From Thermococcus thermotolerans (lineage in GTDB: Archaea > Methanobacteriota_B > Thermococci > Thermococcales > Thermococcaceae), in the NCBI RefSeq assembly GCF_024707485.1, contig NZ_CP102602.1, positions 1,488,001-1,552,000 on the forward strand: a stretch of DNA of 64,000 bases, read 5' to 3'. Position 1 is the first letter of the stretch. Each line of letters begins with the position of its first letter. A program made the translations under genes and the position numbers. Positions 26,597 to 45,943 of the stretch are shown in pieces. The notes under the pieces are model-generated. The model was given only the letters and a program-made list of their open reading frames with translations, did not search any database and had not been told where the DNA came from.

Positions 26597-26650
26597 GGTC
26601 AGCCCCGCGAAACCTCCTCACCGATCAGGGGGCTCCAGAGTCATCATCCC
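26597..26650 (-). ncRNA. Box C/D guide sRNA (intact, at the left attachment site)
   Basis: All four boxes are present with ideal archaeal spacing: C box ATGATGA (26641-26647), 12-nt guide CTCTGGAGCCCC (26629-26640), D' box CTGA (26625-26628), 4 nt, C' box TGAGGA (26615-26620), 12-nt guide GGTTTCGCGGGG (26603-26614), D box CTGA (26599-26602). Such RNAs, with L7Ae, Nop5 and fibrillarin, direct 2'-O-methylation of the target base paired five nt from the D or D' box. From memory, the D guide can pair over CGCGAAACC with a conserved archaeal 16S stretch (GCGCGAAACC); the D' target is not recognised. Its 5' half is the attachment site. Confidence 0.85.
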
Positions 26651-26852
26651 AATTTCCAATTAAGGACAAATTAGTGTTCTTTTTTAATATTCCAGCATGC
26701 TGAAGGGTCTCCTGACCATAAAGGCCAATTTTAAAGTGAATTTCCCTAATTAATGCCAATTCCAAAGTTTTTGATATATTTATGCCTAAGTCTTTAGCTA
26801 TTTTAAGTATTTCTTCATCTACCAGCACACTTGTCCTGACTTTTTTGCTCAT
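26625..26852 (-). CDS. Integrase N-terminal fragment, Int(N), ribbon-helix-helix-like
   Basis: 75 residues from ATG 26852, which has GAGGG 8 bp upstream; an ATG at 26867 in the same frame has no such site. KKVRTSVLVDEEILKIAKDL followed by INISKTLELALIREI is a ribbon-helix-helix-like N-terminus. The last codons read NWDDDSGAP across attL, and the stop is the TGA of the sRNA D' box. At attR the catalytic fragment reads DDESGAP in the same frame, so excision would fuse this piece in frame to the recombinase. That is the SSV-type suicide integrase arrangement. A stand-alone antitoxin-like protein is the alternative. Confidence 0.85.
   Translation of the reverse strand: MSKKVRTSVLVDEEILKIAKDLGINISKTLELALIREIHFKIGLYGQETLQHAGILKKNTNLSLIGNWDDDSGAP
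26627..26650. repeat. Left attachment site (attL core)
   Basis: A 24-bp direct repeat of 45888-45911 with one mismatch (26640 G versus 45901 C). It covers the C box, the D' guide and the first two bases of the D' box of the sRNA, and encodes DDDSGAP in the integrase frame. Sequence on either side differs between the two copies, as expected for a recombination core. Confidence 0.9.
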
Positions 26853-26869
26853 TTTAAGGTCCCTCATGT

Positions 26870-26891
26870 TAGTATATACCAGTATATACTA
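26870..26891. promoter_or_regulatory. Perfect 10-bp inverted repeat, likely operator
   Basis: TAGTATATAC, then CA, then GTATATACTA lies between the divergent Int(N) gene and the 91-residue RHH-like gene. It covers the region just before the Int(N) start and could overlap its promoter. Likely bound by the neighbouring RHH-like protein or by the integrase N-domain. Confidence 0.6.
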
Positions 26892-26977
26892 GTATTCAGA
26901 AATAGTATTTTAAGTTTTCTGCCTAACAAAAACTGTTAAATACAAACACAAAATAATCAACAATTAGGTGATGATAA

Positions 26978-27253
26978 ATGGCAGAGGAAAAGAAGACTCC
27001 AAGACACAATATCCAGCTTGATAATGAAACCTTTGAAAAACTAAACACCTTACAAACTAAACTCAAAGAGGCATTCAAGACAAGATATACTAAATCAGAA
27101 GTCATCTATGCATTGATTGAATATTTTAAACATAGTGTAGATACTGAAGAGCTTATAAAGTTCAAAAAGTTCCTGGATGAAGCAAAATTAAAGGGGAAGT
27201 CTGAAAAACAGACAGATTTAACAAGCATAATAGAAGACCTTAAAAAACTGTGA
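26978..27253 (+). CDS. Small putative ribbon-helix-helix/coiled-coil regulator
   Basis: 91 residues, ATG 26978 with AGGTGATGATAA upstream. RHNIQLDNETFEKLNTLQTK then RYTKSEVIYALIEYFKHS has the strand-helix-helix spacing of RHH DNA-binding proteins, with a charged tail. First rightward gene of the element, next to a palindromic operator. A copy-number or integrase regulator is plausible; no family name is assigned. Confidence 0.65.
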   Translation: MAEEKKTPRHNIQLDNETFEKLNTLQTKLKEAFKTRYTKSEVIYALIEYFKHSVDTEELIKFKKFLDEAKLKGKSEKQTDLTSIIEDLKKL

Positions 27254-27322
27254 ATAATTGCTTCTTATCTTTGTCTGTTTTTAGGATATTACACCCTAAG
27301 TGATATTTCTATTAATCTATTA

Positions 27323-27742
27323 ATGGGATACACATTGGAAAAGCAAAAAAATGCCATCAAGAGATTATCAAAATCATCAATCATAGTGTCAGTACAATAT
27401 AAAGGGAGAACAATTAAGAATGTTGTCATTAAAAAGGTTCACTTTGATGTAACTCACTCTACAATCAAGGTTTTCTTTAATGTTAAGGACATAGAAAAAC
27501 TCAAACTATATCAGGGGAAATGGAAATTAGTTTATCAATACAAATACAGTATCAGTGTATCATTATATCCTTGGAGGTCTGGATTGCAATTGACAATACC
27601 CTCAAAAATTGTAGAGTTTCTCAATATGAATGAAAAATTAGTTATAGGTATAAAAACACACCCATCAAAAAATGAGATACATTTCTTTTTGTTCCCCAGA
27701 AAAATTGAGAAAAAGCTTCTAAAGATTATAACAAGAAGCTAA
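27323..27742 (+). CDS. Unknown element protein with an AbrB-like C-terminal stretch
   Basis: 139 residues, basic. LQLTIPSKIVEFLNMNEKLV (about 95-115) resembles the beta-hairpin 'IPxxI...L' core of swapped-hairpin AbrB-type DNA-binding domains. Two leftward genes at 42.2-43.2 kb have a similar plan. ATG 27323 lacks a clear ribosome binding site and follows the previous gene by 69 bp. Function unknown. Confidence 0.6.
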   Translation: MGYTLEKQKNAIKRLSKSSIIVSVQYKGRTIKNVVIKKVHFDVTHSTIKVFFNVKDIEKLKLYQGKWKLVYQYKYSISVSLYPWRSGLQLTIPSKIVEFLNMNEKLVIGIKTHPSKNEIHFFLFPRKIEKKLLKIITRS

Positions 27743-27782
27743 CCACTTTCAACATCCCCATTACCCAAACATTTGCACAAAG

Positions 27783-27791
27783 TATTTTAAA
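27783..27791 (+). promoter_or_regulatory. TATA box of the BREX operon, with a short leader ORF
   Basis: TATTTTAAA lies about 60 bp before the brxP ATG. Downstream, a 25-codon ORF (27813-27890, MIETLRYSVTSINGG...) has AGGTAGGGG upstream and overlaps the brxP start in another frame. brxP itself has no evident ribosome binding site, so translation of the leader ORF could control entry to brxP. Speculative. Confidence 0.4.
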
Positions 27792-27849
27792 GTGAGAGGT
27801 AGGGGTATTTTCATGATAGAAACATTAAGGTACTCAGTGACCAGTATCA

Positions 27850-30246
27850 ATGGGGGCCAAAGACATGTATGGAGTCACATGGCACTTTGAATCTGGGGGT
27901 ATAAAATTACTAAAAAAGAGTCTTGGAGACATCTCCCCTGATATCAGACCAGTGTTTTGGGAGGAACTTGACCTCCTAGGATTTAATGAATTTTGGGACT
28001 ATCCTCACTCTAATGAACCTCTTCTATGGGCTGTTGGGAGAGACTATTATTATCAGGGCAGAATAGTTGCCAAAGCTGTTGGAGGAGGGTTCTTCCATAG
28101 ACCTAAGTTAAAGGTAATAGAAACTGACCTTGCTCTAGAACCTGTAAATCTGGAAGAAATGTTAAAGGTCAACAAAGAAGTCCTGGACAAATTAATAAAC
28201 TCTACATTAGATTCTATTAGAAACATCTATCTCACAAATAAAGATAAGGTTGACCTAATGGCTGTGTCTTTTAGTGGGGGCAAAGATTCTACTGTACTTC
28301 TTGACTTAGTCCAGAGAGTAGTTCCCCCAACAGAATTTGTTGTTATATTCAATGACACTAACATGGAGCTAAGCCCTACTTATGAGTATGTGGAGATTAT
28401 AAAAAGGAGATACAAAAATCTGAATTTTAGGACTGCAAAAACAGACTTACCAGCTCCTGAAATGTGGAGAAAGATGGGACCCCCTTCCAGGGTGCACAGG
28501 TGGTGTTGTAGTGTCTATAAATCTGCCCCCACAATTAAACTCATTAGAAAGCTAGTAAACAAGGATACCCCAATATTGTTGTTATTTGATGGTGTCAGAA
28601 GTGATGAAAGCCAGAGAAGAACTGCTCTAGGAAAGCTGTTAAAAGAGAAAAACACACTTACATCTCAAGGCAAATATCTCATACAGAGAAATGTACATCC
28701 AATTTTATACTGGAACTCTGCAGAAGTATACCTCTATTTGTTATACAGGGATATCCCCCTTAACAGGCTATACAGATTGGGTCTAAGAAGAGTAGGTTGT
28801 GCAGTATGTCCTTTTGCTTCTCCTTGGAAAGAAACTATAATGGGATTGGCATTTACTACTGAAATACAACCATATCTTAAGATAATTGAGGACTATGCCA
28901 GAAACAAAGGCATAAAAGATGAGTCTGAGATTAAAGAGTTTATTGAAAAAGGCTACTGGAAAATGAGAATAGGAGGAAATGACCTAAAGAGAAAGGAAAA
29001 GGTCATAGTATCAACTTCTAATGACAAGACTTCAATTGTTATCTCAGACCCCAATGAAAAATTCTTTGAGTGGGCCAAAACACTGGGGGATATGGTAATC
29101 TCAAAGAATACATTTGTTTTAAAAGTTGAGAGTGAGATATACAGGTTTAATTGGAAAGAAGACATCACTAAAAATCAATTCATCATTGAGTATGCTAACA
29201 AGGAGATATCAGAAAAGCTTCAAAACCTCATTAAAATAGTAGCTTACAAAACTTCTGATTGTGTTCATTGTATGGTCTGTGAAGCAGTTTGTCCCACAAA
29301 TGCTATTGACATGAGTGAAGGAAAAGTTAAAATTAACAAAGAAAGATGTACTCATTGCTATACATGTCTCACATTTACAAACAGAGGATGTCTTGCTTCA
29401 GATTCACTAAGAGTTGATATGGAGGTCAAAAGTATGAAGAAAGATAAAGGCTTTGGCAGGTATAAAGGCTTTGGCATAAGAACTGAGTGGATTAGGGAGT
29501 TCTTTGACACCACTGAAGACTGGTGGAGCTCTCATACTTTGGGTCCTGAGCAATTCAAAGCAATGAAGCACTGGCTAAATGAAGCTGAGATAATCAAAGT
29601 CCAAAAAGGTAAATACACTATAACAAAGTTAGGTAGAGCATTAATTTCAATTGGAAGCTCAGACCTGTTTACATGGGGCATTATCTGGAACAATCTAGCA
29701 AAGAATTCTCCTCTAATTAAATGGTATCTTGAAAATCTGAAATGGAAAAGAACATACACTACAGAAGACATCTTTAACATCCTAGGTGAAGAATATGCCC
29801 AGAGAACAAAAAAGAACATCCTCAGCTCACTAAGAGAGATATTTGATAAGAGCCCCTTGGGAACTAAACTTGAATTGGGCATAGTGCTAAAACAGAAGAA
29901 CAAAATGATAGGCATTGCCAAACCAGGCTTAAACTTTGGAAATCTCAGTGAACTTCAGATTCAAATGCTAATTCTGTACTCACTATATAGATATGCTGAA
30001 GCTACAGAGAGATACAGCCTGACTATCTCAGAACTTTATGATACCACTCTCCCTGAGGGTCCATACAAGGTATTTGGGGTAGAGAGAGAACAACTAGAGA
30101 AAATATTGCATGGCCTAAGTGAAACCTTTGGGCATGAATGGATTAGAGTTGAAATAATTGCTGACCTTGACAACATATTCCTTTCACCCCAGAAAAACAG
30201 TAAGGATATAATCAATATCTACAAAGAGATGAAACAGAAGGCATGA
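27850..30246 (+). CDS. brxP: BrxP: PAPS reductase-like BREX type 4 protein with ferredoxin domain
   Basis: 798 residues. The PP-loop SFSGGKDSTVLLDLVQRV (near 140) marks an N-type ATP pyrophosphatase of the PAPS reductase/DndC kind. Cysteines in HRWCCSVYK and RRVGCAVCPFASPW could bind an Fe-S cluster. CVHCMVCEAVCPTNAID plus CTHCYTC (about 470-515) is a two-[4Fe-4S] ferredoxin domain. The last 260 residues (FGRYKGFGIRTEWIREFFD onward) look like DUF4007. In BREX type 4 this protein stands where PglX methylase is in type 1; sulfur chemistry on DNA has been proposed but I cannot show it here. ATG 27865 is an alternative start. Confidence 0.88.
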   Translation: MGAKDMYGVTWHFESGGIKLLKKSLGDISPDIRPVFWEELDLLGFNEFWDYPHSNEPLLWAVGRDYYYQGRIVAKAVGGGFFHRPKLKVIETDLALEPVNLEEMLKVNKEVLDKLINSTLDSIRNIYLTNKDKVDLMAVSFSGGKDSTVLLDLVQRVVPPTEFVVIFNDTNMELSPTYEYVEIIKRRYKNLNFRTAKTDLPAPEMWRKMGPPSRVHRWCCSVYKSAPTIKLIRKLVNKDTPILLLFDGVRSDESQRRTALGKLLKEKNTLTSQGKYLIQRNVHPILYWNSAEVYLYLLYRDIPLNRLYRLGLRRVGCAVCPFASPWKETIMGLAFTTEIQPYLKIIEDYARNKGIKDESEIKEFIEKGYWKMRIGGNDLKRKEKVIVSTSNDKTSIVISDPNEKFFEWAKTLGDMVISKNTFVLKVESEIYRFNWKEDITKNQFIIEYANKEISEKLQNLIKIVAYKTSDCVHCMVCEAVCPTNAIDMSEGKVKINKERCTHCYTCLTFTNRGCLASDSLRVDMEVKSMKKDKGFGRYKGFGIRTEWIREFFDTTEDWWSSHTLGPEQFKAMKHWLNEAEIIKVQKGKYTITKLGRALISIGSSDLFTWGIIWNNLAKNSPLIKWYLENLKWKRTYTTEDIFNILGEEYAQRTKKNILSSLREIFDKSPLGTKLELGIVLKQKNKMIGIAKPGLNFGNLSELQIQMLILYSLYRYAEATERYSLTISELYDTTLPEGPYKVFGVEREQLEKILHGLSETFGHEWIRVEIIADLDNIFLSPQKNSKDIINIYKEMKQKA

Positions 30247-30337
30247 CTTCCCTTAATTTGACTTTATGAATCATCAAAAGGATTAAAAAGATGTTAAGGG
30301 TTAATCACCAAGAGAGCAAAAGAAGGGTGAAGGTAAT

Positions 30338-33300
30338 ATGGAGCCCCAAACATATGCTAAATACATTGAAATTGATGAAAATTTTGTAGCTGTTTTTGGA
30401 GAAGAAGTTGACAAGAAAAACAAAGACATGTGGAAAACATTCATACCCCATTCAAGATTCTATGAGATGTTATGGAAACTTCTTCCAAGTTTAAATAGAG
30501 AAGGGTCTGAACCTAAGCCATTGTGGATATTTGGTGCATATGGAACTGGAAAAACCCATGCAGCTTTTGTAATTAAACATCTATTATCAGATGACATTAA
30601 TGATGTTATGGGTTATCTCTCAAAATATGAGATACCCAGCAATTTAAGGGACAAACTGCTTGAGCTTAGAGAAAACAACAAAATCTTGGTGGTTTACAAT
30701 TATGGGTCAAGTGATATAACCTCTGAAAGAAAGCTTCTTCTTGTGTTGCAAGATAGAATCCAAAAAGAACTAAAGAGGATAGTCAAAGAACAAAATACTG
30801 ATAAGCCCTTCATTACAAAGACTGAAATTGAACTGCTAAAAGAAAGACTAGAAGATACAGTGATTAACTGGGATGAATTCATAAAAAAACATGAAGAATT
30901 CTATGAAATGGGAATTGAAAGCAAAGAGGATATCCTTGAGAAGTTAAACCAAGAAGAGATTGATATAGATTTTGTTGAGTATTTAATTGAATCTCTTGAA
31001 GAAGATGGAATAAGCCCATCCTCTAATAGATTCAATGTTGAGACTTTTGTTAACTGGCTAAAAGAGATATTTGAGAGTGGAATAGTGTCTAGGATAGTAT
31101 TCATATGGGATGAATTTTCAGACTTCTTTAACCAAGACCATCCTCCCTTGACAACACTCCAAAAACTTGCTGAGATTACAAAATCAATACCATTTTACTT
31201 GATTCTCATAACACATAGACATCCCAACCAGTTCAAAAGTGCCAGAGTAGATGACATTCAAAAAATCCAAGCCAGATTCAATCTTATTCACTATTACATG
31301 GAACCTGTGACAATCTATCAATTAATGTCAAATGTAATACAGCCAAAGAACTCTGAAGAATGGAAGAAATTTGTGAAACAACAATGGGAACAGTTATCAA
31401 TGTATTACTATCTTGAAGATGAAGTCATGAAGCTAATCTCTGAAGAGAAAAATGCAAATTTGAAGGATATGAAGAAACTATTCCCAATACATCCATACTC
31501 TGTTTATCTGGCAGCTAGGATTTCACAACATATTGGCTCATATCAAAGAACACTCTTTAAATTCTTGAAAGGAGGAGAAAAAGCTGAGACTGTATCCTTT
31601 AGAAAATTTATCAATGAATATCCAAAAGGGATGTGGTACCTCCTAACTCCTGACTTCTTATGGGAATATTTCTTTGTATCAAATGAGGGCATCCACATAT
31701 TCCACCAAGACATTGTAGAGATTATCAACTATTGGGATACATGGAAAGATAAATTATCAGAAGAAGAGCTAAAAGTGTTCAATGTCATAATGATGCTAAG
31801 TGCATTAATGAAGAGAGTTTCTTCTGTACCATTACTTAAGCCCTCTAGAGAAGCCCTTAAAGTGGCATTTTCCGGAACTCCCTTATATCTGAAGCTTCAA
31901 GAAGTTATTAATTCTCTAATGAAAAAAGGAATCATAGCAAGTATAGGGGATGAATTCATCTTACCTTACATGGGACAAATTGACATAAGCAATATTGAGG
32001 CACCAAGATTTAGTTTATTTATCAAAAACAATGAAGCTATTTTATCCAAGGTTAAACAATTAGTAACTTTAGGAAAAGAAAGACTCTCAGTCAGATTCAA
32101 TGCCAAAAATCAAGATATCCCTGTTATTCCAGTTGAAGACTTGGCACTTATGAGAACTCCAAATATCAAAAAAGAACCATATCAGTTGAATGTCATATTT
32201 GGTGTTATGAAAGAAGAGACCCCTCTTTCAGAGATTAAAGAAAAATTGACAAAGATAGCACAGAACTATCCAAATACTGTGTTCATTGTGTCACTATCTG
32301 AACTGGGTGACAAAAACTGGGAAGAAATAGAATTAAACTATAAACATCAGAAAGCACATGAGAAAGCAAATAGGTTTAAAGAAGCAGAGTACTTTAAGAA
32401 GAACATTGACTTCATTGTTGATAAGTGGATGAGCAACATTGAAAATGGAAGATTCCTTGTAGTTTCTCTACTTGAAAATGGCACTGAGAAAGAGTTGATG
32501 GTTGAAGATAACATTTACACAGCCAAAGCATTGTCCTCAGTTCTCAACTCAATTATAAAGAAAGTGTTCAATCATGGACTGGATGAATGGATTAAAAATG
32601 ACACTCTCTGGAGATATGAGAAAAGACCTGAAGCAATTATTAAAAGAACACTAAAAGCATTCCCCCAGCTTGGAAAAGGACAAACTAGAGAGATTTACAA
32701 TCTGCTGGTAGATACCTGGAGAATTGTGGATATACAGGGAGAGTTCATACCTGAAGAGTGCAACCCACAAAAAATACCAGTATGTGCAATGAGAAGAAGA
32801 ATCAAGGAACTATTCCCAGAGACTGAAGAGAGAGTCTCATTATTCCTGTTGTGGGATGAATTGACCAAACCTCCATTTGGGTTGTATCCTTCAAAAATTG
32901 GGGGGATAATATTTGCATTGTTATTAAAAGAATTCAGCAAAGGTTATTATTACACAGATGGAATAAATGATGGGGAGCTAGATGTTGGTACCTTGGGAGA
33001 TTTGATAACTGAAACAATTACTAAGAGGAAAGAATTCTTCATACAAAGACTAAGTTATGAGCAGAGAAGATTCTCTGAGTTATTAAAAGAGATTTTTACT
33101 TTGGATACAGAGTCAAAATATCCCAGAACAGCAATAATAGATGTAAGATTCAAAATCAAGTCCACATTGAAGTATCCTATATGGGCAATAAAATATGGTC
33201 CCTTCAAACTAACAGAGGAAGAAGAAGTCCTTATTGATGTCTTGGATTTTGTAATCAAAAATGAAGAAATTGACAAGCAGGGCACCCAATTACCCAAGGG

Positions 33301-34690
33301 AATTGAAGAACCAATCAAAGACATTGTATATACACTAGATGGACCTGCACAGGATTTAAAAGAAAAATTAAGATATGCCTCTAACCATCCAGAATATTAT
33401 CAGAAAGGATTCTTCAACTTCATACTCAGGAGCCTAACCTCTAATACAATAGAGGGGGAACTAAATAGTGAACAGGGACTAAAAAGAGCACAATTTTATC
33501 AGAAGCTTGAAGACAAAATAAGAGAACTTCTTCAGGAAGAGCCATGGGCATGGAGAGAAGAAGAAGTCAAAAAGGTAATCCAAATCCTTGAGTATGAGAT
33601 TCTTCTAACTAGAGAGCTCTCAAAAGTATTGCACATTAGCAAGGAAGTTATGTTCTTGGAGGACTTAATAGAGAACCTAAAAGAGAAACTACAAAACCTT
33701 GAACTGCTACCTCTCTGGATGTATGAATACCATCCCCAGCTAGTGGAGAAACCCAATCCAGACATCATAGCAATATTGAGAGCATTGTCCCAAATAGTAT
33801 CAATACAAGATGCAGTGAAGGTCAGACAGAAATTTGAATTTGGAATATTATATGAGAAAATCCCCCAAAATGCCAAACAAATTGAAGAAATATTAGATGA
33901 CAAAATGGAGGTTTTAAAATCTTGGGTATCAAGTAAACTAGGTGAAGAGATTGACAGAGAGATTCTCAATGAAATTATGGAAGAAATCAGAGGGATAGTC
34001 AAAGATAGGGGGCCAGAGAAAGTCAGTGAAGAAAGCCTTGTAATAAAAGTTAGAACTGTCATAACTAGGGCAAGGAAGACCAAAATAAAGAAAGAAATTG
34101 AAGACTCCCTCATCAAAATTATTGGCACAAGTGACATAAGAGAATTCCTGAGAACAAAAATGATTCCTGTTGAGCTAATTAAGTATCTTCCAGGAGTTCC
34201 TGAAAATGTGGCAAATAATGTTGAAAACTTAGTTAGAGCACTACTGGAATTCAGGAATATTGATTCAGAAAACAGGCTTACAGAGATAAAGACACTAATT
34301 GAGACATACTCCTCAGAACTCAGTCTTCTTTCTAAAGAAGACATACATTACAAGATTTTCAGAAGTTTCTTTGGGGAAGATTGGATTGAAGGACTGTTAA
34401 CTAAACATGACTTTGCAGATATGCTAAATGACATGAAACTCAAATTAGGGGAGAATGTGGAAAAATGGACAACAAAACAGATTAGAGACTTTTACAAAGA
34501 ATGGGTCAGGGAGAAATACAAGGAAGAAATGTATGATAGGATTCAACAGATAATTCATGCACTACCACCAGAAGAACTCAAAGAGCTTGTTACACTTATT
34601 ATCAAAGATGACCCAGGAGTTGGACTCAAAATTGCAAAATTAATTAGAAAGTATCAGGGTGAGTCAAATGGAGAATACTCTCAAAGTTAA
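30338..34690 (+). CDS. brxC: BrxC/PglY: large BREX P-loop ATPase
   Basis: 1450 residues. Walker A is GAYGTGKTHAAF (near 67) and Walker B is RIVFIWDEFSDFF (near 250), followed by ITHRHPNQF, as in the BrxC/PglY ATPase. The remainder is helical and charged, with no other motif I can name. GGGTGAAGG precedes the ATG. It is the second gene of the brxP-brxC-pglZ-brxL run and overlaps pglZ by 23 bp. Length is in the usual range (about 1200-1500). The only CpG I found in the element lies in this gene, at 31873. Confidence 0.88.
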   Translation: MEPQTYAKYIEIDENFVAVFGEEVDKKNKDMWKTFIPHSRFYEMLWKLLPSLNREGSEPKPLWIFGAYGTGKTHAAFVIKHLLSDDINDVMGYLSKYEIPSNLRDKLLELRENNKILVVYNYGSSDITSERKLLLVLQDRIQKELKRIVKEQNTDKPFITKTEIELLKERLEDTVINWDEFIKKHEEFYEMGIESKEDILEKLNQEEIDIDFVEYLIESLEEDGISPSSNRFNVETFVNWLKEIFESGIVSRIVFIWDEFSDFFNQDHPPLTTLQKLAEITKSIPFYLILITHRHPNQFKSARVDDIQKIQARFNLIHYYMEPVTIYQLMSNVIQPKNSEEWKKFVKQQWEQLSMYYYLEDEVMKLISEEKNANLKDMKKLFPIHPYSVYLAARISQHIGSYQRTLFKFLKGGEKAETVSFRKFINEYPKGMWYLLTPDFLWEYFFVSNEGIHIFHQDIVEIINYWDTWKDKLSEEELKVFNVIMMLSALMKRVSSVPLLKPSREALKVAFSGTPLYLKLQEVINSLMKKGIIASIGDEFILPYMGQIDISNIEAPRFSLFIKNNEAILSKVKQLVTLGKERLSVRFNAKNQDIPVIPVEDLALMRTPNIKKEPYQLNVIFGVMKEETPLSEIKEKLTKIAQNYPNTVFIVSLSELGDKNWEEIELNYKHQKAHEKANRFKEAEYFKKNIDFIVDKWMSNIENGRFLVVSLLENGTEKELMVEDNIYTAKALSSVLNSIIKKVFNHGLDEWIKNDTLWRYEKRPEAIIKRTLKAFPQLGKGQTREIYNLLVDTWRIVDIQGEFIPEECNPQKIPVCAMRRRIKELFPETEERVSLFLLWDELTKPPFGLYPSKIGGIIFALLLKEFSKGYYYTDGINDGELDVGTLGDLITETITKRKEFFIQRLSYEQRRFSELLKEIFTLDTESKYPRTAIIDVRFKIKSTLKYPIWAIKYGPFKLTEEEEVLIDVLDFVIKNEEIDKQGTQLPKGIEEPIKDIVYTLDGPAQDLKEKLRYASNHPEYYQKGFFNFILRSLTSNTIEGELNSEQGLKRAQFYQKLEDKIRELLQEEPWAWREEEVKKVIQILEYEILLTRELSKVLHISKEVMFLEDLIENLKEKLQNLELLPLWMYEYHPQLVEKPNPDIIAILRALSQIVSIQDAVKVRQKFEFGILYEKIPQNAKQIEEILDDKMEVLKSWVSSKLGEEIDREILNEIMEEIRGIVKDRGPEKVSEESLVIKVRTVITRARKTKIKKEIEDSLIKIIGTSDIREFLRTKMIPVELIKYLPGVPENVANNVENLVRALLEFRNIDSENRLTEIKTLIETYSSELSLLSKEDIHYKIFRSFFGEDWIEGLLTKHDFADMLNDMKLKLGENVEKWTTKQIRDFYKEWVREKYKEEMYDRIQQIIHALPPEELKELVTLIIKDDPGVGLKIAKLIRKYQGESNGEYSQS

Positions 34691-37091: not shown

Positions 37092-37102
37092 GAGGGACCC
37101 AA

Positions 37103-38557: not shown

Positions 38558-38591
38558 ACTTTTCACCCATTACTTTGTACTTCAAAATGAG

Positions 38592-39178: not shown

Positions 39179-39197
39179 AAAAAGAAAAGTGATGGGG

Positions 39198-42100
39198 TTA
39201 AATTCTCTTGACCTTGAACACTGGAACTTCTGAGTTCTTGAGCACTGAGGATAGTTCAGTACCCATGAGTTCTATGTGTCTCCTGAACTTGGTTAACAGG
39301 AGTTCCTTAACTCTCTCTGCAACTTCCTCTTCATCATTGACACTTATTCTGGTGAGGAGGAGTGCAATGAACCTGTCAAAGCTTATTGACTTCTCATTCT
39401 TAAGCTCCTTGAGGAGCTGGTAGACCTCTTCCCTCAACTCTTCTTCATCAACCCCTCTCATTCTTGTGGCTTTTGAAAGATTCACAACAAGGGCTTTGAT
39501 GACCTTGCCTTTGATTCTGACAGTCTTAACCCTTGCAACATCATTGTACTTGCTATTGATTACCCTTTCAAGCTCTCTCAGACTCTTAATTTCTTCAAAT
39601 AGGGTGTTGTTCTCTCTGAGTATCTTGAGTGCTGAGCTGGTAACAATTAGTTCTCCATCTTCTGTCTTCTTGATGAAACTTGAGTTTTCCAACTTTTCAA
39701 GCATGTCATCAACATAAATTAGCATTTCTGAAACATCATCCTGTTGTGATTCTATCTCCCCTATGAGATTTGCAGTGTTCTCCAGTACCCTATCAATCCT
39801 CTTGACAAGTTCCATTTTGTTGTGCTTCTCTGCAATGACTCTGAGTAGGATTAGTCCCTGCCAAATCTGACTGTAGAGCTTTAGCCTTCTGGAGTGTATG
39901 TCTGTTAAAACATCCCTCATTTTCTTGTAATACATTTTAGCATACTCTGAGAAAGTCATTTTGTACTGGTTCATTATTGAGAGCACTTCATCAAGCATAT
40001 AGTACCCTGTTCCCCCAGTGATTTCTTCAATCAGGTCTATTGTTTCTTCATCTGTGAAGACATATGCTTTCTCTTCCTCATTACTAAGCTTAATCTGGAT
40101 AATCCTATCCTTGAATGCTTCATCATTTGTAACAAATCTGGTATTGCTGGTAACAAAGAGTGTGGCTCTGAGGTCTATGCTGACTGTACTGAGGTCTGCC
40201 CTGCCCCTGCTGATTGATTTAACACCAGTCAAGTAGGATTTTATGAAATCTCTTAGATTGTTGTCTATTTCCCTTGATGACACATCATCAAGCACAATTG
40301 GGAGTGTGGCCAGGCTAAGTGCACTAACAATTCTGAAGTTGCTTTTAGCTTCTTGGATTGAGAGCTTCTTTATTGCAAAGAGTTTCTCTGAGATGAATTC
40401 CATTAGGGTTGATTTTCCCAATCCTGGTTCCTTGCTCCAGACCCAGATAAGGGGCTTCAATCTTAGCTCATTGTTGAAGAAGCTACTGAATAAGGCCCCT
40501 GATACCACTGCAAAGAGCTTGTCATCCCTGATTCTGTTGAAGACTTCCAATGCCTTTTCTATATCTTCCTCTGATACTTTTTCTTGGTAATTTCTGACAT
40601 CTGAGACACTGTATGTCTCATTATAGAATTCTGTGGCATTGTGAGTGTATTTCTTCTTCTCTTCATTCCATTCTACTTCAAAGACTTCTGATACCTTGGT
40701 TATCTTAATTCTGTAATATCTGATGAGTATGTCAAAAACTGCCTGAAGTATGGTCTCTATTTGCTGTTTTGACTTCATTCTAACAAGGGGTGAACCATAC
40801 AAGTACTCTGCTATCCTTCTGAGTGGGGCTTGCCTGAATTCCTCATTTGTGTATTCTGATTGGATTTTGACTGTGTAAAGCCACTCACTTGTTTTCTTCA
40901 TATCATTTCTCTTGACTATGACTTCCTTCAGGATGATTCTTGCCTTGATGAAGTATTCTCTACCTACTAACTGGTCCCCTTCATCATTCTTCTTGTACCA
41001 GGCAAGGGCTATGCTATCCCTGTAAACTTCAACATCCATTATTCTTCCCTTGTTGCTGATTCTGACCCTTCCCAGGAACTTTCTGTTGTAGGTTTGACCA
41101 TGTTTCTTAAGTAACTCAATTATGTCATTTTTGAGCTTTATTATGACATCCTTTGCTTCTGAGAGTTCAATTTTGTTGGCTGAAGCAAACTGACTGAGTC
41201 TTCTATCCTCAAGTAGTTCTCCTTTGTCATTTTGTATAAAGAAGAAGCTAACTGTTGCTATTTTATCCCTACCCTCCTCTTCAGCCTTTTTTGTAATGGA
41301 CTTCACAATGCTCATTCTTTGTTTGTACTCCTCATCACTCAAGAGATTGATGAGTTCTTCTGTAATATAGTAAAGTTGTTCCTCAGTGATTCTTGTATAT
41401 TTGTATATTGTTGCCAGTGTGAAGAACAAGAGGTTGTGTCTTGTCCCAATTGCATAATAATCTTTGATGATGAGGTAGATTTCCTTTGCTATACTGTCCA
41501 ACTTCTCTTCTTCCAAATCAACAACTTCTTCTTCCTCATACTGTTTTTCTGTTCTTGTTTTGGCCTTCTTTTTCTCTTCAAGCTCCTCTATGAGCTTAAT
41601 TATGACTTCTTTCTTTGCTGTTTCATCTGTTTGGTAGATAATCTTTGCCTGTTGCTTTGACTCTTGATTTATGCTCCAGGGGATTCTGATTATTCTAGCA
41701 AAATCATATATGTTGTCTGCCTTGCAATCAGTACCCTCAAACAGCTCTGCCAGGGCTGAGAGTCTCTTGTATTCCCCCTCTTTTAGGGGTGTGTTAAGTA
41801 GTATCTTGATATGTATTCCCCTACCAGAGTGAATTACTGTATATGGTATTCCCCTCTTCTTGAGCTTCTCTTCAAGTAGTGGAGCAATTTTTGTGTTCAA
41901 TTCCTTCATTGTGATAGTCTGGTGTTCTCCCTTATCCAAATCAATATAGGTGACCCTGCTCTCCTTGAGGGCATACTTTTCCTTCCTCTGCTTCTCCTTG
42001 TAGATGAAAATGCTGTGGTAGATGTTGTATTTTTCAAGGTTTTTCATTATCCAGTTCTTGATTTTCTCTGGCTCTTCTTTGAGTTCTCTGATTGTGAAGT

Positions 42101-42290
42101 AGAAGCTCTGTTTCCCCCCTTCTGGTCTTCTGAAGAGTACAATATACCAATCCTCCCTGTCCCCCCAGCCCTGTTCTTCAATATAATATCTTCTAAGGTA
42201 CTCTACAATCTCCTCTGCTGTTTTTTCAGTAATCTTTAAGTGTTCATTACTCCTATTATTATTGAGGATTTGGGTGCTTGCCTCAGCCAT
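39198..42290 (-). CDS. Replication initiator: AEP primase-polymerase fused to SF3 helicase
   Basis: 1030 residues. The N-terminal archaeo-eukaryotic primase domain shows its three motifs: YIDLDKG (Asp 117 and 119), HSGRGIHIKI (His 160) and DFARIIRIPWSIN (near 200). The C-terminal helicase has Walker A EPGLGKSTLMEF (near 620), Walker B LPIVLDDVSS (near 668) and the sensor ATLFVTSNT (near 713), as in SF3/D5-like helicases. PrimPol-helicase proteins open and prime the origin of many archaeal plasmids and viruses. GGAGTGATG precedes the ATG. It is transcribed leftward towards the iterons. Arg codons are AGA/AGG. Confidence 0.9.
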   Translation of the reverse strand: MAEASTQILNNNRSNEHLKITEKTAEEIVEYLRRYYIEEQGWGDREDWYIVLFRRPEGGKQSFYFTIRELKEEPEKIKNWIMKNLEKYNIYHSIFIYKEKQRKEKYALKESRVTYIDLDKGEHQTITMKELNTKIAPLLEEKLKKRGIPYTVIHSGRGIHIKILLNTPLKEGEYKRLSALAELFEGTDCKADNIYDFARIIRIPWSINQESKQQAKIIYQTDETAKKEVIIKLIEELEEKKKAKTRTEKQYEEEEVVDLEEEKLDSIAKEIYLIIKDYYAIGTRHNLLFFTLATIYKYTRITEEQLYYITEELINLLSDEEYKQRMSIVKSITKKAEEEGRDKIATVSFFFIQNDKGELLEDRRLSQFASANKIELSEAKDVIIKLKNDIIELLKKHGQTYNRKFLGRVRISNKGRIMDVEVYRDSIALAWYKKNDEGDQLVGREYFIKARIILKEVIVKRNDMKKTSEWLYTVKIQSEYTNEEFRQAPLRRIAEYLYGSPLVRMKSKQQIETILQAVFDILIRYYRIKITKVSEVFEVEWNEEKKKYTHNATEFYNETYSVSDVRNYQEKVSEEDIEKALEVFNRIRDDKLFAVVSGALFSSFFNNELRLKPLIWVWSKEPGLGKSTLMEFISEKLFAIKKLSIQEAKSNFRIVSALSLATLPIVLDDVSSREIDNNLRDFIKSYLTGVKSISRGRADLSTVSIDLRATLFVTSNTRFVTNDEAFKDRIIQIKLSNEEEKAYVFTDEETIDLIEEITGGTGYYMLDEVLSIMNQYKMTFSEYAKMYYKKMRDVLTDIHSRRLKLYSQIWQGLILLRVIAEKHNKMELVKRIDRVLENTANLIGEIESQQDDVSEMLIYVDDMLEKLENSSFIKKTEDGELIVTSSALKILRENNTLFEEIKSLRELERVINSKYNDVARVKTVRIKGKVIKALVVNLSKATRMRGVDEEELREEVYQLLKELKNEKSISFDRFIALLLTRISVNDEEEVAERVKELLLTKFRRHIELMGTELSSVLKNSEVPVFKVKRI

Positions 42291-42760
42291 GACTCATCAC
42301 TCCTTTCCATCATACCTCTTTCTTTTTCAAAACCAGGAGCTGGGTCAAACACTCTCTCAACTTCCCACTGTGGCACCTCAAGAATTAGTTTCTGAGTGTT
42401 TTTCTCTACATCTATCAGTATTGTGACATCTACTGTGAATCTAGTCCCTGAGAGGCCATATTCAACCATGAGAAGGTCTATGATTGATGTTGGGATTTGG
42501 TATATGACAACATACTTTTTGTAGTTGTACATTTTACTGATGAATTTAATCTTCTCTCCTTTGATGATTATCTCTGCATTTGCCTTGTCTTTTCTTTTTA
42601 GTTCTATGAGGCTGTCAAGGTGTTTCTTTTTGACTGATAAGTAGCCTGCTCCATTTTGAATGTAAACAATTCTCCCTGAGACTGTGATTTTGAACTGTGT
42701 TGCTGTGAGTTGCTCCACAATAACATTATCATCAAGCTGATTGGTGACTTTACCCATCAT
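42236..42760 (-). CDS. Unknown element protein, paralogue with AbrB-like C-terminal segment
   Basis: 174 residues, GGAGGTGA 6 bp before ATG 42760. Shares a plan with the next upstream gene: FKITVSGRIVYIQNGAGYL versus FKFSKKRIYISNEAGYI, then KIKFISKMYNYKKYV versus KIKLITKVLENKYNY, then YQIPTSIIDLL versus YLPVSIMRTLI. The 'I/LPxSI' hairpin recalls AbrB-type domains. Its end overlaps the PrimPol gene by 55 bp, and its start overlaps the upstream gene by 11 bp, so it belongs to the replication operon. Function unknown. Confidence 0.7.
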   Translation of the reverse strand: MMGKVTNQLDDNVIVEQLTATQFKITVSGRIVYIQNGAGYLSVKKKHLDSLIELKRKDKANAEIIIKGEKIKFISKMYNYKKYVVIYQIPTSIIDLLMVEYGLSGTRFTVDVTILIDVEKNTQKLILEVPQWEVERVFDPAPGFEKERGMMERSDESWLRQAPKSSIIIGVMNT

Positions 42761-43160
42761 GGTTCATCACCTCCTTAACCTTCACATAACATAATATTAC
42801 AGAATGCTTAGGATAAAAATTAGAAAAATTGATTTTAGCAAGCACTGAGTTGAATTCAAACTCCAACTCAACATCAGCAGTCAGGGGTTCCTTGAGCTTG
42901 TAAATTCTGATTAGAGTCCTCATGATGCTCACTGGAAGGTAAATCCTGTAATTATACTTGTTTTCAAGAACTTTTGTGATGAGCTTGATTTTATCCCCTC
43001 CCACTTTGATTTCAACTGGAATCTCTTGTGGGAAGCTCACCTTGTTCTTCAAGTCTGATTCCTTGTTGATGATGATATACCCTGCTTCATTGCTAATATA
43101 GATTCTTTTCTTTGAAAATTTGAAAGATTGAGAAGGGGTGAAGCCTGTCACAATGTACAT
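42750..43160 (-). CDS. Unknown element protein, paralogue of its downstream neighbour
   Basis: 136 residues from ATG 43160 with GGGGTGG 7 bp upstream; a TTG at 43178 lies further up in the same frame but would overlap the previous gene and has no ribosome site. It holds RIYISNEAGYIIINK and YRIYLPVSIMRTLIRIYKL, aligned with the 174-residue protein downstream. Possibly a DNA-binding partner of the initiator; this is inference from position and the AbrB-like hairpin. Confidence 0.65.
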   Translation of the reverse strand: MYIVTGFTPSQSFKFSKKRIYISNEAGYIIINKESDLKNKVSFPQEIPVEIKVGGDKIKLITKVLENKYNYRIYLPVSIMRTLIRIYKLKEPLTADVELEFEFNSVLAKINFSNFYPKHSVILCYVKVKEVMNHDG

Positions 43161-43174
43161 GACCAGCCACCCCT

Positions 43175-43660
43175 TCAATTCTCAACTATGATACCTGCCC
43201 TGACATCATACTCATAACCATCAACTCCTTGTATTTCCTGAGCTGTTTCTTTTGCTTCCTTTATTGCATTCTTGAATGCTTCTATGACTTCCTCTTTGTG
43301 TTTTTCAAGGAATTCTGAGAGTTTGAGGTCATCATAGTCTTCATAGTCATCACTGTCAAACCAGTGGCTCTCATTCAAGTCATCATAGAATTCCCAGTCC
43401 TCTTCTCCAATCTTTCTGGCAAAGTAGACTTCTGAAGCAATTATGAACCTGTAAAGCCCCATATGGCCCTCTTTTTCTGCTCTATTGACTGCTCTGAGGA
43501 GAGCTTCAAAGTGTTCTCCATCACTGAATTTGTAATACTCTCTGTGTGCTCTGTGTACTCTACCAAATCCAGTGAGTGCTTCAAAGTATTCATCTTCAAG
43601 TTCTTTGAGCTTCTTCTCATCAATCTTGGTTTGGATATCATCAACCTTACCCCCTGTCAT
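43175..43660 (-). CDS. Acidic element protein of unknown function
   Basis: 161 residues from ATG 43660 with GGAGGTGG 6 bp upstream. Very acidic in its middle (EEDWEFYDDLNESHWFDSDD and on) and helical at both ends (EFLEKHKEEVIEAFKNAIKE). No known domain. A DNA-mimic or anti-defence role would fit the acidity but there is no direct evidence. First gene of the 43.7-39.2 kb leftward operon. Confidence 0.65.
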   Translation of the reverse strand: MTGGKVDDIQTKIDEKKLKELEDEYFEALTGFGRVHRAHREYYKFSDGEHFEALLRAVNRAEKEGHMGLYRFIIASEVYFARKIGEEDWEFYDDLNESHWFDSDDYEDYDDLKLSEFLEKHKEEVIEAFKNAIKEAKETAQEIQGVDGYEYDVRAGIIVEN

Positions 43661-43699
43661 GGCAACCACCTCCATCACCAATCTTCATTTTTATAATAA

Positions 43700-43714
43700 T
43701 ACAAAAAGTACTTA
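43700..43714 (-). promoter_or_regulatory. Element promoter motif, copy 1
   Basis: Minus-strand TAAGTACTTTTTGTA, about 40 bp before ATG 43660, with TTATAAAAA just downstream. It matches 44146-44160 in 14 of 15 bases. A shared promoter or regulator site of the element. Confidence 0.45.
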
Positions 43715-44116
43715 GGGGGTATCAAAAAACAACACCCCTAGGTGCACACTATTGTTTATTTTACTGAGGAAAATGTACAATGTTAGCTTGTTGAATTCTT
43801 GTTTAAACCAGATGCTTTTGACATGGTATTCCTTGAAGATGGCTTGTGTGAAGTCACTGTCAAACTCAATTAAGTCATCATTACCCCTGTGGACAACTTC
43901 CTTCTCAAGCTCCAAGAACACTTCATCATTCCAGCTTGGAATGATGAAGTAAAGCTTGATATTGTCAAACTGGTTGATGAGTTTGTTGTGTAGCTTGAGC
44001 ACTGTTCTATCCTTGACTATGACTTCAAAGTCTCCTTCATCAAGGGGGCACTCATAAAGCCCCCCAACCTCAAAACCATCAATCCCAACCTTATTGTGGG
44101 TACTTGCCCCAGTCAT
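43712..44116 (-). CDS. Element protein of unknown function
   Basis: 134 residues, ATG 44116 with GGAGGTGATG upstream. Mixed alpha/beta composition with several hydrophobic strands (IKLYFIIPSW, KLTLYIFLSKI) and no motif I know. The short distance to the next operon (stop at 43712, promoter motif at 43700-43714) means it is probably a single-gene transcript. Confidence 0.6.
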   Translation of the reverse strand: MTGASTHNKVGIDGFEVGGLYECPLDEGDFEVIVKDRTVLKLHNKLINQFDNIKLYFIIPSWNDEVFLELEKEVVHRGNDDLIEFDSDFTQAIFKEYHVKSIWFKQEFNKLTLYIFLSKINNSVHLGVLFFDTP

Positions 44117-44145
44117 AACTCATCACCTCCTTCATTGTATAATTG

Positions 44146-44160
44146 TACAAAAACTACTTA
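44146..44160 (-). promoter_or_regulatory. Element promoter motif, copy 2
   Basis: Minus-strand TAAGTAGTTTTTGTA, 30-44 bp before ATG 44116, preceded by a TATA-like CTTTTTAAG. It matches the site at 43700-43714 with one mismatch. Confidence 0.45.
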
Positions 44161-44263
44161 AAAAGTTAATCATTATTTCAAACATTTGTGTACAGTAGTG
44201 CATCAATAAAACACCAAAAACATTATAAACTTTTTATTGGTATCCTTGTTGAGGGGATTGGCC

Positions 44264-44677
44264 ATGGAACAGGAGTATTATGTGATGTATGGGATTGATG
44301 CTGGGGATGACTACTTGAAATTCCTCACTGCTGAGGAGTTTGAAAGTGTCAAGGAAGCTATCAAAAAATTCACTAGTAGTGAGTGTGTTTTTTGTGACCT
44401 CCCAGACCAGCAGAGACTTAAACTCTTCAAGAATAATGTGACATACCTAGCAAAGAAGCTAATAGAAAAAAGGGAGCTAGAACTTATTTCAAACAGTGTT
44501 GTATTCCTTGATGGGGATGATGTTGATGATATGGGGTCTGATGATGAGGCTAAAGAGATTATCAACACACTTATAGAGAATGCTGAATTTATCAAAAAAC
44601 TCACAGTAGAGTTTTTATACAGGTTTAGAGTGTTAAGCACTGAGATATTTGTCTTCAAGTTAATATTTGCTGAATGA
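44264..44677 (+). CDS. Acidic element protein of unknown function
   Basis: 137 residues from ATG 44264 with GAGGGGA 6 bp upstream; the frame extends 9 codons further to a TTG with no ribosome site. Acidic, helical, with FLDGDDVDDMGSDDEAKEII (near 85). TATA-like ATTATAAAC lies at about 44222-44230. It converges with the small membrane protein and overlaps it by 23 bp. No family recognised. Confidence 0.6.
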   Translation: MEQEYYVMYGIDAGDDYLKFLTAEEFESVKEAIKKFTSSECVFCDLPDQQRLKLFKNNVTYLAKKLIEKRELELISNSVVFLDGDDVDDMGSDDEAKEIINTLIENAEFIKKLTVEFLYRFRVLSTEIFVFKLIFAE

Positions 44678-44909
44678 TTGTTTTCATTATTTCCATTAGC
44701 TTTTCTATGAGTTCTTGAGTGTTTACTATAATTGTATTTAGGATCATGCTCAGCCTAACACCATGTCTTTGTAATAATCCATATAATGAGTATGTAATGA
44801 TACTAACAACAACTACAGCAATAAGTGTGGGTAGTCTTCTTATCAAAACCACAATGATGTAACTTATGAGCAATATGATTATAAGTTGTGAAATAATCAT
44901 AGCCCCCAT
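44655..44909 (-). CDS. Small membrane protein of the element
   Basis: 84 residues. Two hydrophobic helices (about 4-24 and 27-46), an RHG turn and an amphipathic tail (NTIIVNTQELIEKLMEIMKT). It resembles the small one- or two-helix proteins common on archaeal plasmids and viruses. ATG 44909 or 44900. It lies 16 bp after the integrase stop side, on the same strand, so may follow the integrase on its transcript. Confidence 0.6.
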   Translation of the reverse strand: MGAMIISQLIIILLISYIIVVLIRRLPTLIAVVVVSIITYSLYGLLQRHGVRLSMILNTIIVNTQELIEKLMEIMKTIIQQILT

Positions 44910-44925
44910 CAGAAATTAAGAACAA

Positions 44926-45927
44926 TTACATCTTGAAGATTATGTGTGAAAAAACTTTATCATACTCTTGTTTAAGCCTCTCTATTTCCAGTTTCAGGTA
45001 GTTTTGGGTTGTTACTAATCCCTTGTGCCCAACAATCAGCTGTAAGACCATGCTATCCCCATTTTTCCTTTTCCATTCTTGTATGAAGAATTTTCTGAGG
45101 TCTTTAAGCCTCAATTCTGTATTCAAGTCTTCTCTGAAGATTTTATCTAAATATGTTTTGTTTGATTGGTATATTGTGAAGTCAAATACTCTCTCATTCT
45201 TTTCCAGTCCTTGTAGATGCTTTTCCAGTAGGCTTCTCACTTGGTTTGTGAAAAATGTCACCCTGAACTCCCTTTTCTTTGTGTATTCTGATTGGATATA
45301 TATTGCCCTACTCTCTAAGTCTATATCTCTCTTCTTCAACTTTAAAGCCTCCACAATCCTCATTCCAGTAACTGATAATAGGAGAATCAAAAGAACTAAT
45401 TGGTCTTTCTCACTATTGGGTAGTTTACTCTCCTTGACAATCCTAATAAACTCTTCTACATCTTCCTTTTTGACTATTTTGATTTGATGGTTCACTTTCT
45501 TGTAGGAGAAGAGGTTTAATAATCTCTCATCAACCCCAACAACCTTGCAAAGTTTCTTTACATACATCAAGTACCTGTTGTAGGTTTCATCACTCCATTT
45601 TTTGTCTATCATCTTGAAAAACCTCTTCAGTGTTGGGTAGTCAACTACATAATTTGAGAACTCCAGAAAAGTGTTGATAATCTTCTCTATATGTTTTTTG
45701 TGCCTGGGTGTGATGTCTTTATTTTCATAGTGCTCCCAGAAAAGTTGCAGGTGTTCTTCTTTAATTCTCCACTTCTTTGTGAAGAGGGTCTCACTCTCAA
45801 AATTGTCCTTTTTAGCAGAATTTCCTTTAAAGTATTGCTTTTTAGCAGTAAAAACTTTCCCTTCCTTTGTTTCCCCAAAAAACCTCAAGGGGGCTCCAGA
45901 CTCATCATCCCTGCAGAGGTTAGCCAT
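44926..45927 (-). CDS. Integrase C-terminal fragment, Int(C), SSV-type tyrosine recombinase
   Basis: The frame is open for 333 codons up to an ATG at 45927 that lies in host DNA and has no ribosome binding site; genuine element codons begin at the DDESGAP encoded by attR. Catalytic residues are visible: Arg in SVTGMRIVEALKL (near 188), Lys in YTKKREFRV, KxxR in LRLKDLRKFF (near 276), His in VGHKG (near 300) and Tyr in TTQNYLKL (near 308). K-x-x-R in place of H-x-x-R and the split at the attachment site are typical of archaeal SSV-type integrases. Probably not translated while integrated. Confidence 0.9.
   Translation of the reverse strand: MANLCRDDESGAPLRFFGETKEGKVFTAKKQYFKGNSAKKDNFESETLFTKKWRIKEEHLQLFWEHYENKDITPRHKKHIEKIINTFLEFSNYVVDYPTLKRFFKMIDKKWSDETYNRYLMYVKKLCKVVGVDERLLNLFSYKKVNHQIKIVKKEDVEEFIRIVKESKLPNSEKDQLVLLILLLSVTGMRIVEALKLKKRDIDLESRAIYIQSEYTKKREFRVTFFTNQVRSLLEKHLQGLEKNERVFDFTIYQSNKTYLDKIFREDLNTELRLKDLRKFFIQEWKRKNGDSMVLQLIVGHKGLVTTQNYLKLEIERLKQEYDKVFSHIIFKM
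45888..45911. repeat. Right attachment site (attR core)
   Basis: Direct repeat of attL, 23 of 24 bases identical. It keeps the C box and D' guide of the sRNA, but the D' box is broken (CTTGA) and there is no C' or D box beyond, so this is only a 5' half-copy of the sRNA. Confidence 0.9.
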
Positions 45928-45934
45928 TGGAGGT

Positions 45935-45943
45935 TAATAACGT
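45935..45943 (-). promoter_or_regulatory. Probable original sRNA promoter, now orphaned at attR
   Basis: Minus-strand GTTATTAAC is centred about 27 bp before the C-box half-site, the normal archaeal TATA distance for an sRNA starting near 45912. It lies in host DNA and now faces the half-sRNA and Int(C). The ATG of the Int(C) frame (45925-45927) would lie upstream of that transcription start. Confidence 0.45.

Follow-up and report, generated by a model that had tools for sequence, protein, structure and literature searches.

A lineage of integrative elements in Thermococcus that is virtually free of CpG dinucleotides

Within the window (the whole 64-kb stretch of DNA that was analyzed), an integrated element of 19,283 bp extends from att core to att core (positions 26628 to 45910), as delimited by the CpG count, the att repeat, and the unoccupied site in related genomes. 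A 22-bp direct repeat with one mismatch bounds its two ends, with the left copy, GGGGGCTCCAGAGTCATCATCC, at 26628 to 26649 and the right copy, GGGGGCTCCAGACTCATCATCC, at 45889 to 45910. The 64-kb window contains no tRNA gene; the integration target is the C/D-box sRNA gene sR23 (26597 to 26649, minus strand; Rfam RF01138, 74.1 bits against a gathering threshold of 45), which contains the repeat and whose 5′ part comes from the att core. In dozens of Thermococci genomes, the 23-bp word of the right copy adjoins alaS, and in many of them the site is empty, with the core directly beside the alaS region (in G014:C2, for example, the core lies at 181570 to 181592 and the alaS match starts at 181592).

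The integrase gene is split between the two ends. At the left end lies int(N) (26625 to 26867, minus strand; Pfam CcdA, 1.3e-7), an N-terminal ribbon-helix-helix/CcdA-like piece, and at the right end lies int(C) (44926 to 45927, minus strand; Pfam Phage_integrase, 4.1e-16), the tyrosine-recombinase part, in which the att core occupies codons 6 to 13 and the first residues are encoded by the host. Joining the element ends yields a single open integrase frame of 400 amino acids, which rules out the left-end CcdA-like frame as an antitoxin. The element is thus an integrative element with an SSV-type (suicidal) integrase, whose gene carries att and is split upon integration. The att repeats, split integrase, and empty sites bear out the original prediction of a mobile element. 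Its extent was predicted as 26624 to 45940; this holds for the CpG-free stretch, and the element proper is slightly smaller. Elements of the pTN3, TPV1, and pT26-2 types likewise have a split integrase with att in its 5′ part, a large plasmid-type replication protein, and a similar size; unlike those, att lies here in a C/D-box sRNA gene rather than in a tRNA gene.

Two small genes precede the cargo on the plus strand. The first (26978 to 27253) encodes a 91-amino-acid protein with 40% identity over 47 amino acids (E = 0.001) to a 98-amino-acid protein located at the end of a sister element described below, and the second (27323 to 27742) encodes a 139-amino-acid protein conserved in the sister (40% identity, E = 5e-29). 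Next come, also on the plus strand, brxP of the PAPS-reductase type (27850 to 30246; PADLOC BrxP, 1.6e-257; Pfam PAPS_reduct), brxC (30338 to 34690; PADLOC BrxC, 6.6e-93), pglZ (34659 to 37091; PADLOC PglZ, 1.1e-55), and brxL (37103 to 38557; PADLOC BrxL, 4.5e-217; Pfam BrxL). PADLOC thus finds the type 4 set of BrxP, BrxC, PglZ, and BrxL complete in one operon, which, judged from its genes, is type-4-like BREX. All four genes follow the order known from the phosphorothioate-linked type 4 systems; unlike in those, the operon is CpG free and sits inside a mobile element.

Beyond the cargo, an intergenic region with direct and inverted repeats of TGTAACC/GGTTACA (38592 to 39161), found by repeat search, is a putative replication origin; the sister has similar DNA (72%) at the corresponding position next to rep. 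The adjacent rep gene (39198 to 42290, minus strand) encodes a primase/helicase-type replication protein of 1,030 amino acids (PHROG DNA polymerase/primase, 2e-6; 62 to 63% identical in the sister) and serves as the marker gene of the element lineage. It is followed on the minus strand by the gene for a 174-amino-acid protein conserved in the sister (42236 to 42760; 64% identity), for which structure prediction gave no confident model (pLDDT 31), and by three small genes (42750 to 43178, 43175 to 43681, and 43712 to 44116), the first of which encodes a divergent paralogue of the 174-amino-acid protein. Open reading frames of 146 amino acids (44237 to 44677, plus strand) and 84 amino acids (44655 to 44909, minus strand) complete the gene content.

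How complete is the loss of CpG? A machine count of 26627 to 45911 (19,285 bp, GC content 0.362) revealed one CpG, at 31873 to 31874, versus ∼630 expected, and the nearest host CpGs lie at 26622 on the left and 45941 on the right. The near-total loss and these three positions are exactly as predicted. The single CpG falls in brxC at the border of a TCC and a GGA codon (Ser-Gly). The flanks of the element have CpG observed/expected (o/e) ratios of 0.88 and 0.87, within the host range of 0.87 to 0.92, and the longest CpG-free runs in 440-kb and 400-kb samples of two host chromosomes were 270 bp and 304 bp. AT-rich host windows (GC < 0.43) still have a ratio of ∼0.65.

A further genome of this genus, G060, contains a second member of the lineage. 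This sister is 22.2 kb long, has no CpG versus about 672 to 679 expected, carries different cargo, and has another C/D sRNA gene, sR43, as its insertion site. Common to both members are rep, an integrase, and three small proteins, one of DNA-binding size and two unknown; neither a nuclease nor a deaminase is among the shared genes, and BREX is present in the window element only. The originally proposed search for related elements with the same signature thus yielded one case in Thermococci, and the absence of CpG is therefore an old lineage trait rather than an accident of one integration. The two rep genes are 62% identical and their 4-fold sites approach saturation (43% identity, where independent sequences would give 30%), indicating that the trait was kept across a long divergence. 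Because both members descend from one common ancestor, they represent one evolutionary event, not two. We found no further members in genome contigs, phage records, or plasmid records, and none of the phage and plasmid records searched matched the elements in sequence. There were also none in viral contigs, where one distant resolvase match (L105) was CpG normal, and none among 398 genomes from another archaeal phylum, which gave only short distant primase/helicase matches with CpG ratios of 0.5 to 0.65.

Pooled, the two elements retain 1 CpG where ∼1,300 are expected. Fifteen of the 16 NCGN contexts are empty, with 22 to 166 sites expected per context, and the exception is one CCGG. Intergenic DNA contains no CpG (32 expected). 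Arg CGN codons number 0 of 292 in the window element and 0 of 284 in the sister (0 of 576 jointly, versus 11 to 36% elsewhere). Shuffling synonymous codons in the five largest genes left at least 171 CpGs (mean, 204) versus the single one present. Codon choice by itself is thus not a sufficient explanation of the loss, which, as originally proposed, acts at the level of DNA. The BREX cargo took part in this loss, again in agreement with the prediction, since a BrxP homologue elsewhere (genome G016, ∼50% identical) is CpG normal. Where the G016 gene has CpG at codon borders, with amino acid and following G kept, the window has TG in 9 cases and AG in 2, and CGN Arg codons are replaced by AGA wherever Arg is kept. 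BREX itself is ruled out as the cause, given the CpG-free sister without it.

CpG is not the only motif affected. GATC occurs 2 times versus 64 expected in the window element (35356 to 35359 and 44742 to 44745) and 0 times versus 80 in the sister, far below the Markov expectation for short palindromes. The sister also lacks CATG (0 versus 69), GCWGC (0 versus 16.8), GGNCC (0 versus 10.8), and GGWCC. The absence of GATC, CATG, GCWGC, and GGWCC is a signature of restriction-site avoidance. Other Thermococcales elements have lost a 4-bp site and kept CpG, including an island in G062 (GATC, 0 versus 55), pIRI48 (CATG, 0 versus 44), and a G063 plasmid (GATC, 0 versus 23); complete motif purging is thus common in this mobilome. 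A 3.6-kb plasmid co-resident with the sister in G060 avoids GATC, CATG, and GCWGC and has a CpG ratio of 0.78. The shared avoidance indicates a long stay of the sister among Thermococcus, and the retained CpG means that the CpG agent is not general to that host.

In these two diverged members, then, the loss of CpG and GATC is complete or nearly so, with CpG purged from every context, including Arg CGN codons and intergenic DNA. The hosts have normal CpG, as do other elements of Thermococci and the homologue of a BREX gene. We lean, by a little, toward the view that this is a lineage of plasmid- or virus-like integrative elements in which CG is not tolerated, owing to a CpG-reading, restriction-type defense that acts on the free form. 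Each CpG in the extrachromosomal element would be a target of a host defense reading only CG, and nearly all CpG-bearing variants would be eliminated; the lineage would shed CpG completely, together with GATC (and, in the sister, CATG, GCWGC, and GGWCC), and then stay CpG free. The force would be selection by a nuclease or another CpG-reading defense outside the chromosome, rather than hypermutation. Of the two mechanisms originally offered, counter-selection is favored because GATC is also missing and because CGN codons are gone although deamination cannot silently remove them at conserved Arg; ordinary m5C deamination should be insufficient. Known restriction-site avoidance in phages and plasmids resembles this case in the total loss of short motifs irrespective of coding, and differs in that the main motif purged here is two bases long, in all contexts, across ∼1,300 sites.

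Could CpG-directed hypermutation leave the same picture? In one host or another, or at one stage of the life cycle, CpG cytosines might be methylated or, as in RIP, enzymatically deaminated; heat, which accelerates m5C deamination, would then turn them into TpG/CpA. Symmetric TpG/CpA ratios are indeed raised (1.19 in the window element and 1.30 in the sister versus 0.9 to 1.0 in CpG-normal elements), and T is favored as the base that takes the place of C before G at 4-fold sites. The rise, which the original prediction proposed as a discriminating test, was seen but does not tell the mechanisms apart, since CpG removal itself lifts TpG and CpA and C-to-T is the commonest escape route; it is partly an arithmetic consequence of zero CpG, slightly exceeding pure redistribution, above all in the sister. 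At most one CpG per ∼1,300 demands a loss/gain ratio of several hundred, beyond the decay in methylated genomes; conserved Arg residues have not retained CGN; and the missing GATC, CATG, and GCWGC stay unexplained. Vertebrate m5C deamination and ZAP-type RNA sensing of vertebrate viruses also produce a CpG-specific deficit with TpG/CpA above average, yet ratios there are ∼0.2 to 0.5 with many CGN Arg codons, versus ∼0.001 here, without CGN or GATC, and in a CpG-normal host. These points leave room only for a mutator so extreme that each CpG becomes a lethal load. A very intense, RIP-like mutator directed at CpG would nevertheless leave nearly the same traces as selection, and we regard hypermutation as unlikely, though a serious contender.

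The agent was also sought in the hosts. Neither host (G000 or G060) has a match to a C5 methylase (PF00145), which the original prediction had proposed to look for, or to MethyltransfD12, and neither an enzyme that restricts at a bare CG nor a GATC nuclease was identified there. The lack of a C5 methylase match and the normal CpG of the hosts speak against hypermutation, although m4C or other enzymes may be present. We know of no restriction enzyme that reads only a two-base CG target. Thermococcus does have m5C methylases, one of which, in genome G018, is part of a DISARM locus. CRISPR spacers from 115 Thermococci genomes gave no convincing match to the element, and avoidance of a CRISPR PAM is ruled out, as CC/GG is not reduced.

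Alternatively, the elements may come from, or alternate with, an unsampled host that disfavors CpG, such as a Methanocaldococcus-like or other vent archaeon, with Thermococcus a recent stop. Plasmids are documented to move between Thermococcales and Methanococcales (PMC3543421), 1 CpG per 2,648 TG/CA sites suggests a short time in a CpG-tolerant setting, and the co-resident G060 plasmid shows no CpG loss. The plasmids tested do not support the Methanocaldococcus-type past host originally suggested and argue against Methanocaldococcus as a simple source: the ratios are 0.33 for a Methanocaldococcus jannaschii plasmid, in which CpG-free stretches reach at most 1.6 kb, and 0.58 for pMETVU01, not zero. 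The sister's motif avoidance matches its present host's plasmid, the att sites are Thermococcales sRNA genes, and a CpG-reading force would be needed in the other host too. We therefore consider this origin improbable. Less probable still is a cause in the element's own biology, either self-immunity to a CpG-targeting weapon of itself or its relatives or a replication or packaging step that fails at CpG; the trait does track the rep lineage rather than the host, but the two members have no nuclease or deaminase in common. Assembly error, chance, AT-richness, and codon usage can be dismissed, given two independent genomes with clean att borders and intact genes, other elements of GC content 0.36 to 0.38 with CpG ratios of 0.5 to 0.8, and the synonymous shuffling.

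These elements, ∼20 kb of double-stranded DNA carrying genes for replication, integration, and cargo, function on 15 of the 16 dinucleotides; to our knowledge, there is no comparable case in archaea or bacteria. They show how far motif avoidance can go, imply a strong anti-CpG force outside vertebrates, and provide a naturally CpG-free gene set that includes a whole BREX operon. We give even chances to the proposal that hyperthermophilic archaea, or a host visited by the lineage, own an undescribed defense against bare CpG, either two-base and restriction-type or a CpG-directed mutator, which the lineage would have escaped by eliminating CpG genome-wide. The question is directly testable with the genetics of Thermococcus kodakarensis.

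The original prediction of a near-total absence of CpG was borne out by direct count, with one CpG in 26627-45911 (19,285 bp; GC content, 0.362) where ~630 were expected, and the positions it gave for the nearest host CpGs on both sides were exact. The flanking host DNA, which it described as CpG rich, has an observed/expected (o/e) ratio of 0.87 to 0.88; in a 440-kb sample of the host chromosome, the longest CpG-free run was 270 bp, and AT-rich windows still had a ratio of ~0.65. Within the element, all 16 NCGN tetranucleotides are depleted, with a complete deficit in each context. As claimed, the loss holds in codons (CGN for 0 of 292 Arg), across codon borders (1 CpG versus 307 expected), and in noncoding DNA (0 intergenic CpGs versus 32 expected). 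Can codon choice explain it? Reshuffling the synonymous codons of the five largest genes, which preserves their CpG-free codon usage, gave a mean of 204 CpGs and a minimum of 171 versus 1 observed, in agreement with a loss that acts on DNA, beyond codon choice. The element's brxP has no CpG, versus 71 in a homologue from another genome (G016; two aligned segments, 53% and 47% identical). Thus, the BREX cargo has been purged as well, as had been proposed.

A 22-bp att repeat marks both ends of the element (26628-26649 and 45889-45910; one mismatch between copies); it is the 5' part of sR23, a minus-strand C/D-box sRNA gene downstream of alaS (26597-26649; Rfam RF01138, 74.1 bits). Dozens of Thermococci genomes have an empty site, with the identical core adjoining alaS and no insertion. 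The integrase gene contains the att core, and joining the element ends yields a single open 400-aa integrase. When integrated, the left end carries its ribbon-helix-helix/CcdA-like N-terminal piece (26625-26867; a CcdA antitoxin, the likely annotation call, is ruled out), and the right end carries the recombinase piece (44926-45927). The two pieces enclose a type-4-like BREX operon (brxP-brxC-pglZ-brxL), the gene for a 1030-aa primase/helicase-type replication protein (rep), and several further small genes. Next to rep, an intergenic group of repeats of TGTAACC/GGTTACA, both direct and inverted (38592-39161), may be the replication origin.

Relatives of rep were sought in 115 genomes of the phylum, and only one close relative was found, in a genome of the same genus (G060; 63% identical, 62% over the full-length alignment). 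It lies in a 22.2-kb chromosomal stretch with no CpG (672 to 679 expected), so the suggested search for the same signature in related Thermococcales elements succeeded. This sister element, possibly a virus, has in common with the window's element rep and small proteins at 64% identity, at 40% identity, and with weak similarity; its cargo differs (AAA ATPase, 998-aa membrane-anchored protein, serine resolvase, and PD-(D/E)XK nuclease). No third member of the CpG-free lineage was found in these 115 genomes or in the other collections searched, and a distant rep relative in genome G062, 30% identical, has normal CpG (0.8). At fourfold sites, identity between the rep genes of the two elements is 43%, versus 30% expected for independent sequences. 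Together with a CpG-free sister and different cargo, this marks the CpG-free state as a lineage trait, one that has been maintained through long divergence and cargo exchange. Both members share one ancestor, so the loss has been observed once.

The sister is hosted by another C/D-box sRNA gene, sR43 (L029:9888-9947; Rfam RF01128, 58.5 bits). Its own att core, GGGACTGTGACAAGAAAGCAC, has neither of the two CpGs of the host copy, GGGACGATGACGAGAAAGCAC; between the two copies (L028:7637-7657 and L029:9887-9907), the host CpGs are changed from CG to CT and from CG to CA, which may reflect a different donor sRNA. Both CpG-free elements are thus integrated in C/D-box sRNA genes, with different integrases. 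Archaeal integrases mostly target tRNA genes (PMC8371274), and no C/D-box sRNA gene target was found in the literature searched.

Other words are also missing. A k-mer scan found GATC twice in the window's element (64 expected) and never in the sister (80 expected), which also lacks CATG (0/69 expected), GCWGC (0/16.8), and GGWCC/GGNCC (0/10.8). In the sampled parts of both host chromosomes, GATC is under-represented and still present. CpG is retained in a G062 island (GATC, 0/55), the known Thermococcus plasmid pIRI48 (L100; CATG, 0/44), and a G063 plasmid (GATC, 0/23). Because a four-base site is wholly lost from these other Thermococcales elements, complete motif purging is general in this mobilome. 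The G062 locus with the 30% identical rep (L032; G062:C1:1385001-1405000) avoids many palindromes together (besides GATC, CTAG 2/30, CATG 8/39, ACGT 15/49, and GCWGC 1/24), with near-normal CpG, and the 7.7-kb G063 plasmid (L147; G063:C2) also strongly avoids GANTC (3/29) and GTAC (2/21).

Were the CpGs removed by mutation or by selection? A RIP-like mutator is a less likely cause, and would have to be so intense that every CpG is a lethal load. Ordinary methylation-deamination predicts a rise in CpA/TpG, and o/e ratios are indeed raised, to 1.19 in the window's element and 1.30 in the sister versus 0.9 to 1.0 in CpG-normal elements; part of this rise is forced, since setting CpG to zero alone gives ~1.12 (our arithmetic, by simple renormalization), and a CpG is most often lost by transition. 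Three points argue against ordinary methylation-deamination: the residue is ~1/1,300 over the two elements; CGN encodes 0 of 576 Arg in both versus 11 to 36% in comparable elements, and deamination cannot remove CGN silently where Arg is conserved; and GATC and other words are missing too. Nor did a search of both host genomes for a C5 (m5C) methylase, a check that had been suggested, find one in either. In other genomes, a DISARM-like locus (DrmB, PLD nuclease, and m5C methylase) is followed by a MutY/EndoIII-like glycosylase gene (L075:49-3449 in G018; L076 in G102), whose product could plausibly repair the damage left by m5C deamination in the heat; G075 has a comparable methylase-glycosylase pair (L077).

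Both integrated copies sit in chromosomes with normal CpG. A 3.6-kb plasmid co-resident with the sister avoids GATC (2/18), CATG (0/8), and GCWGC (0/3.6) as the sister does, and has a CpG ratio of 0.78. Avoidance of the four- and five-base words thus fits a Thermococcus setting, whereas the force against CpG is limited to this lineage, to another visited host, or to a stage skipped by the small plasmid. One CpG versus 2,648 TG/CA neighbors suggests that the window's copy came into a CpG-tolerant state only recently.

The element's components are of known kinds: a split-integrase integrative element, an AEP-like replication protein, and a type-4 BREX. CpG is absent from the topics of a k-mer study on archaeal cells and mobile elements (PMC7962313) and unmentioned in a 2026 Thermococcales virus survey (PMC12934983). 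These two elements stretch motif purging to a two-base motif, and the novelty is the loss of a whole dinucleotide from a functioning element family.
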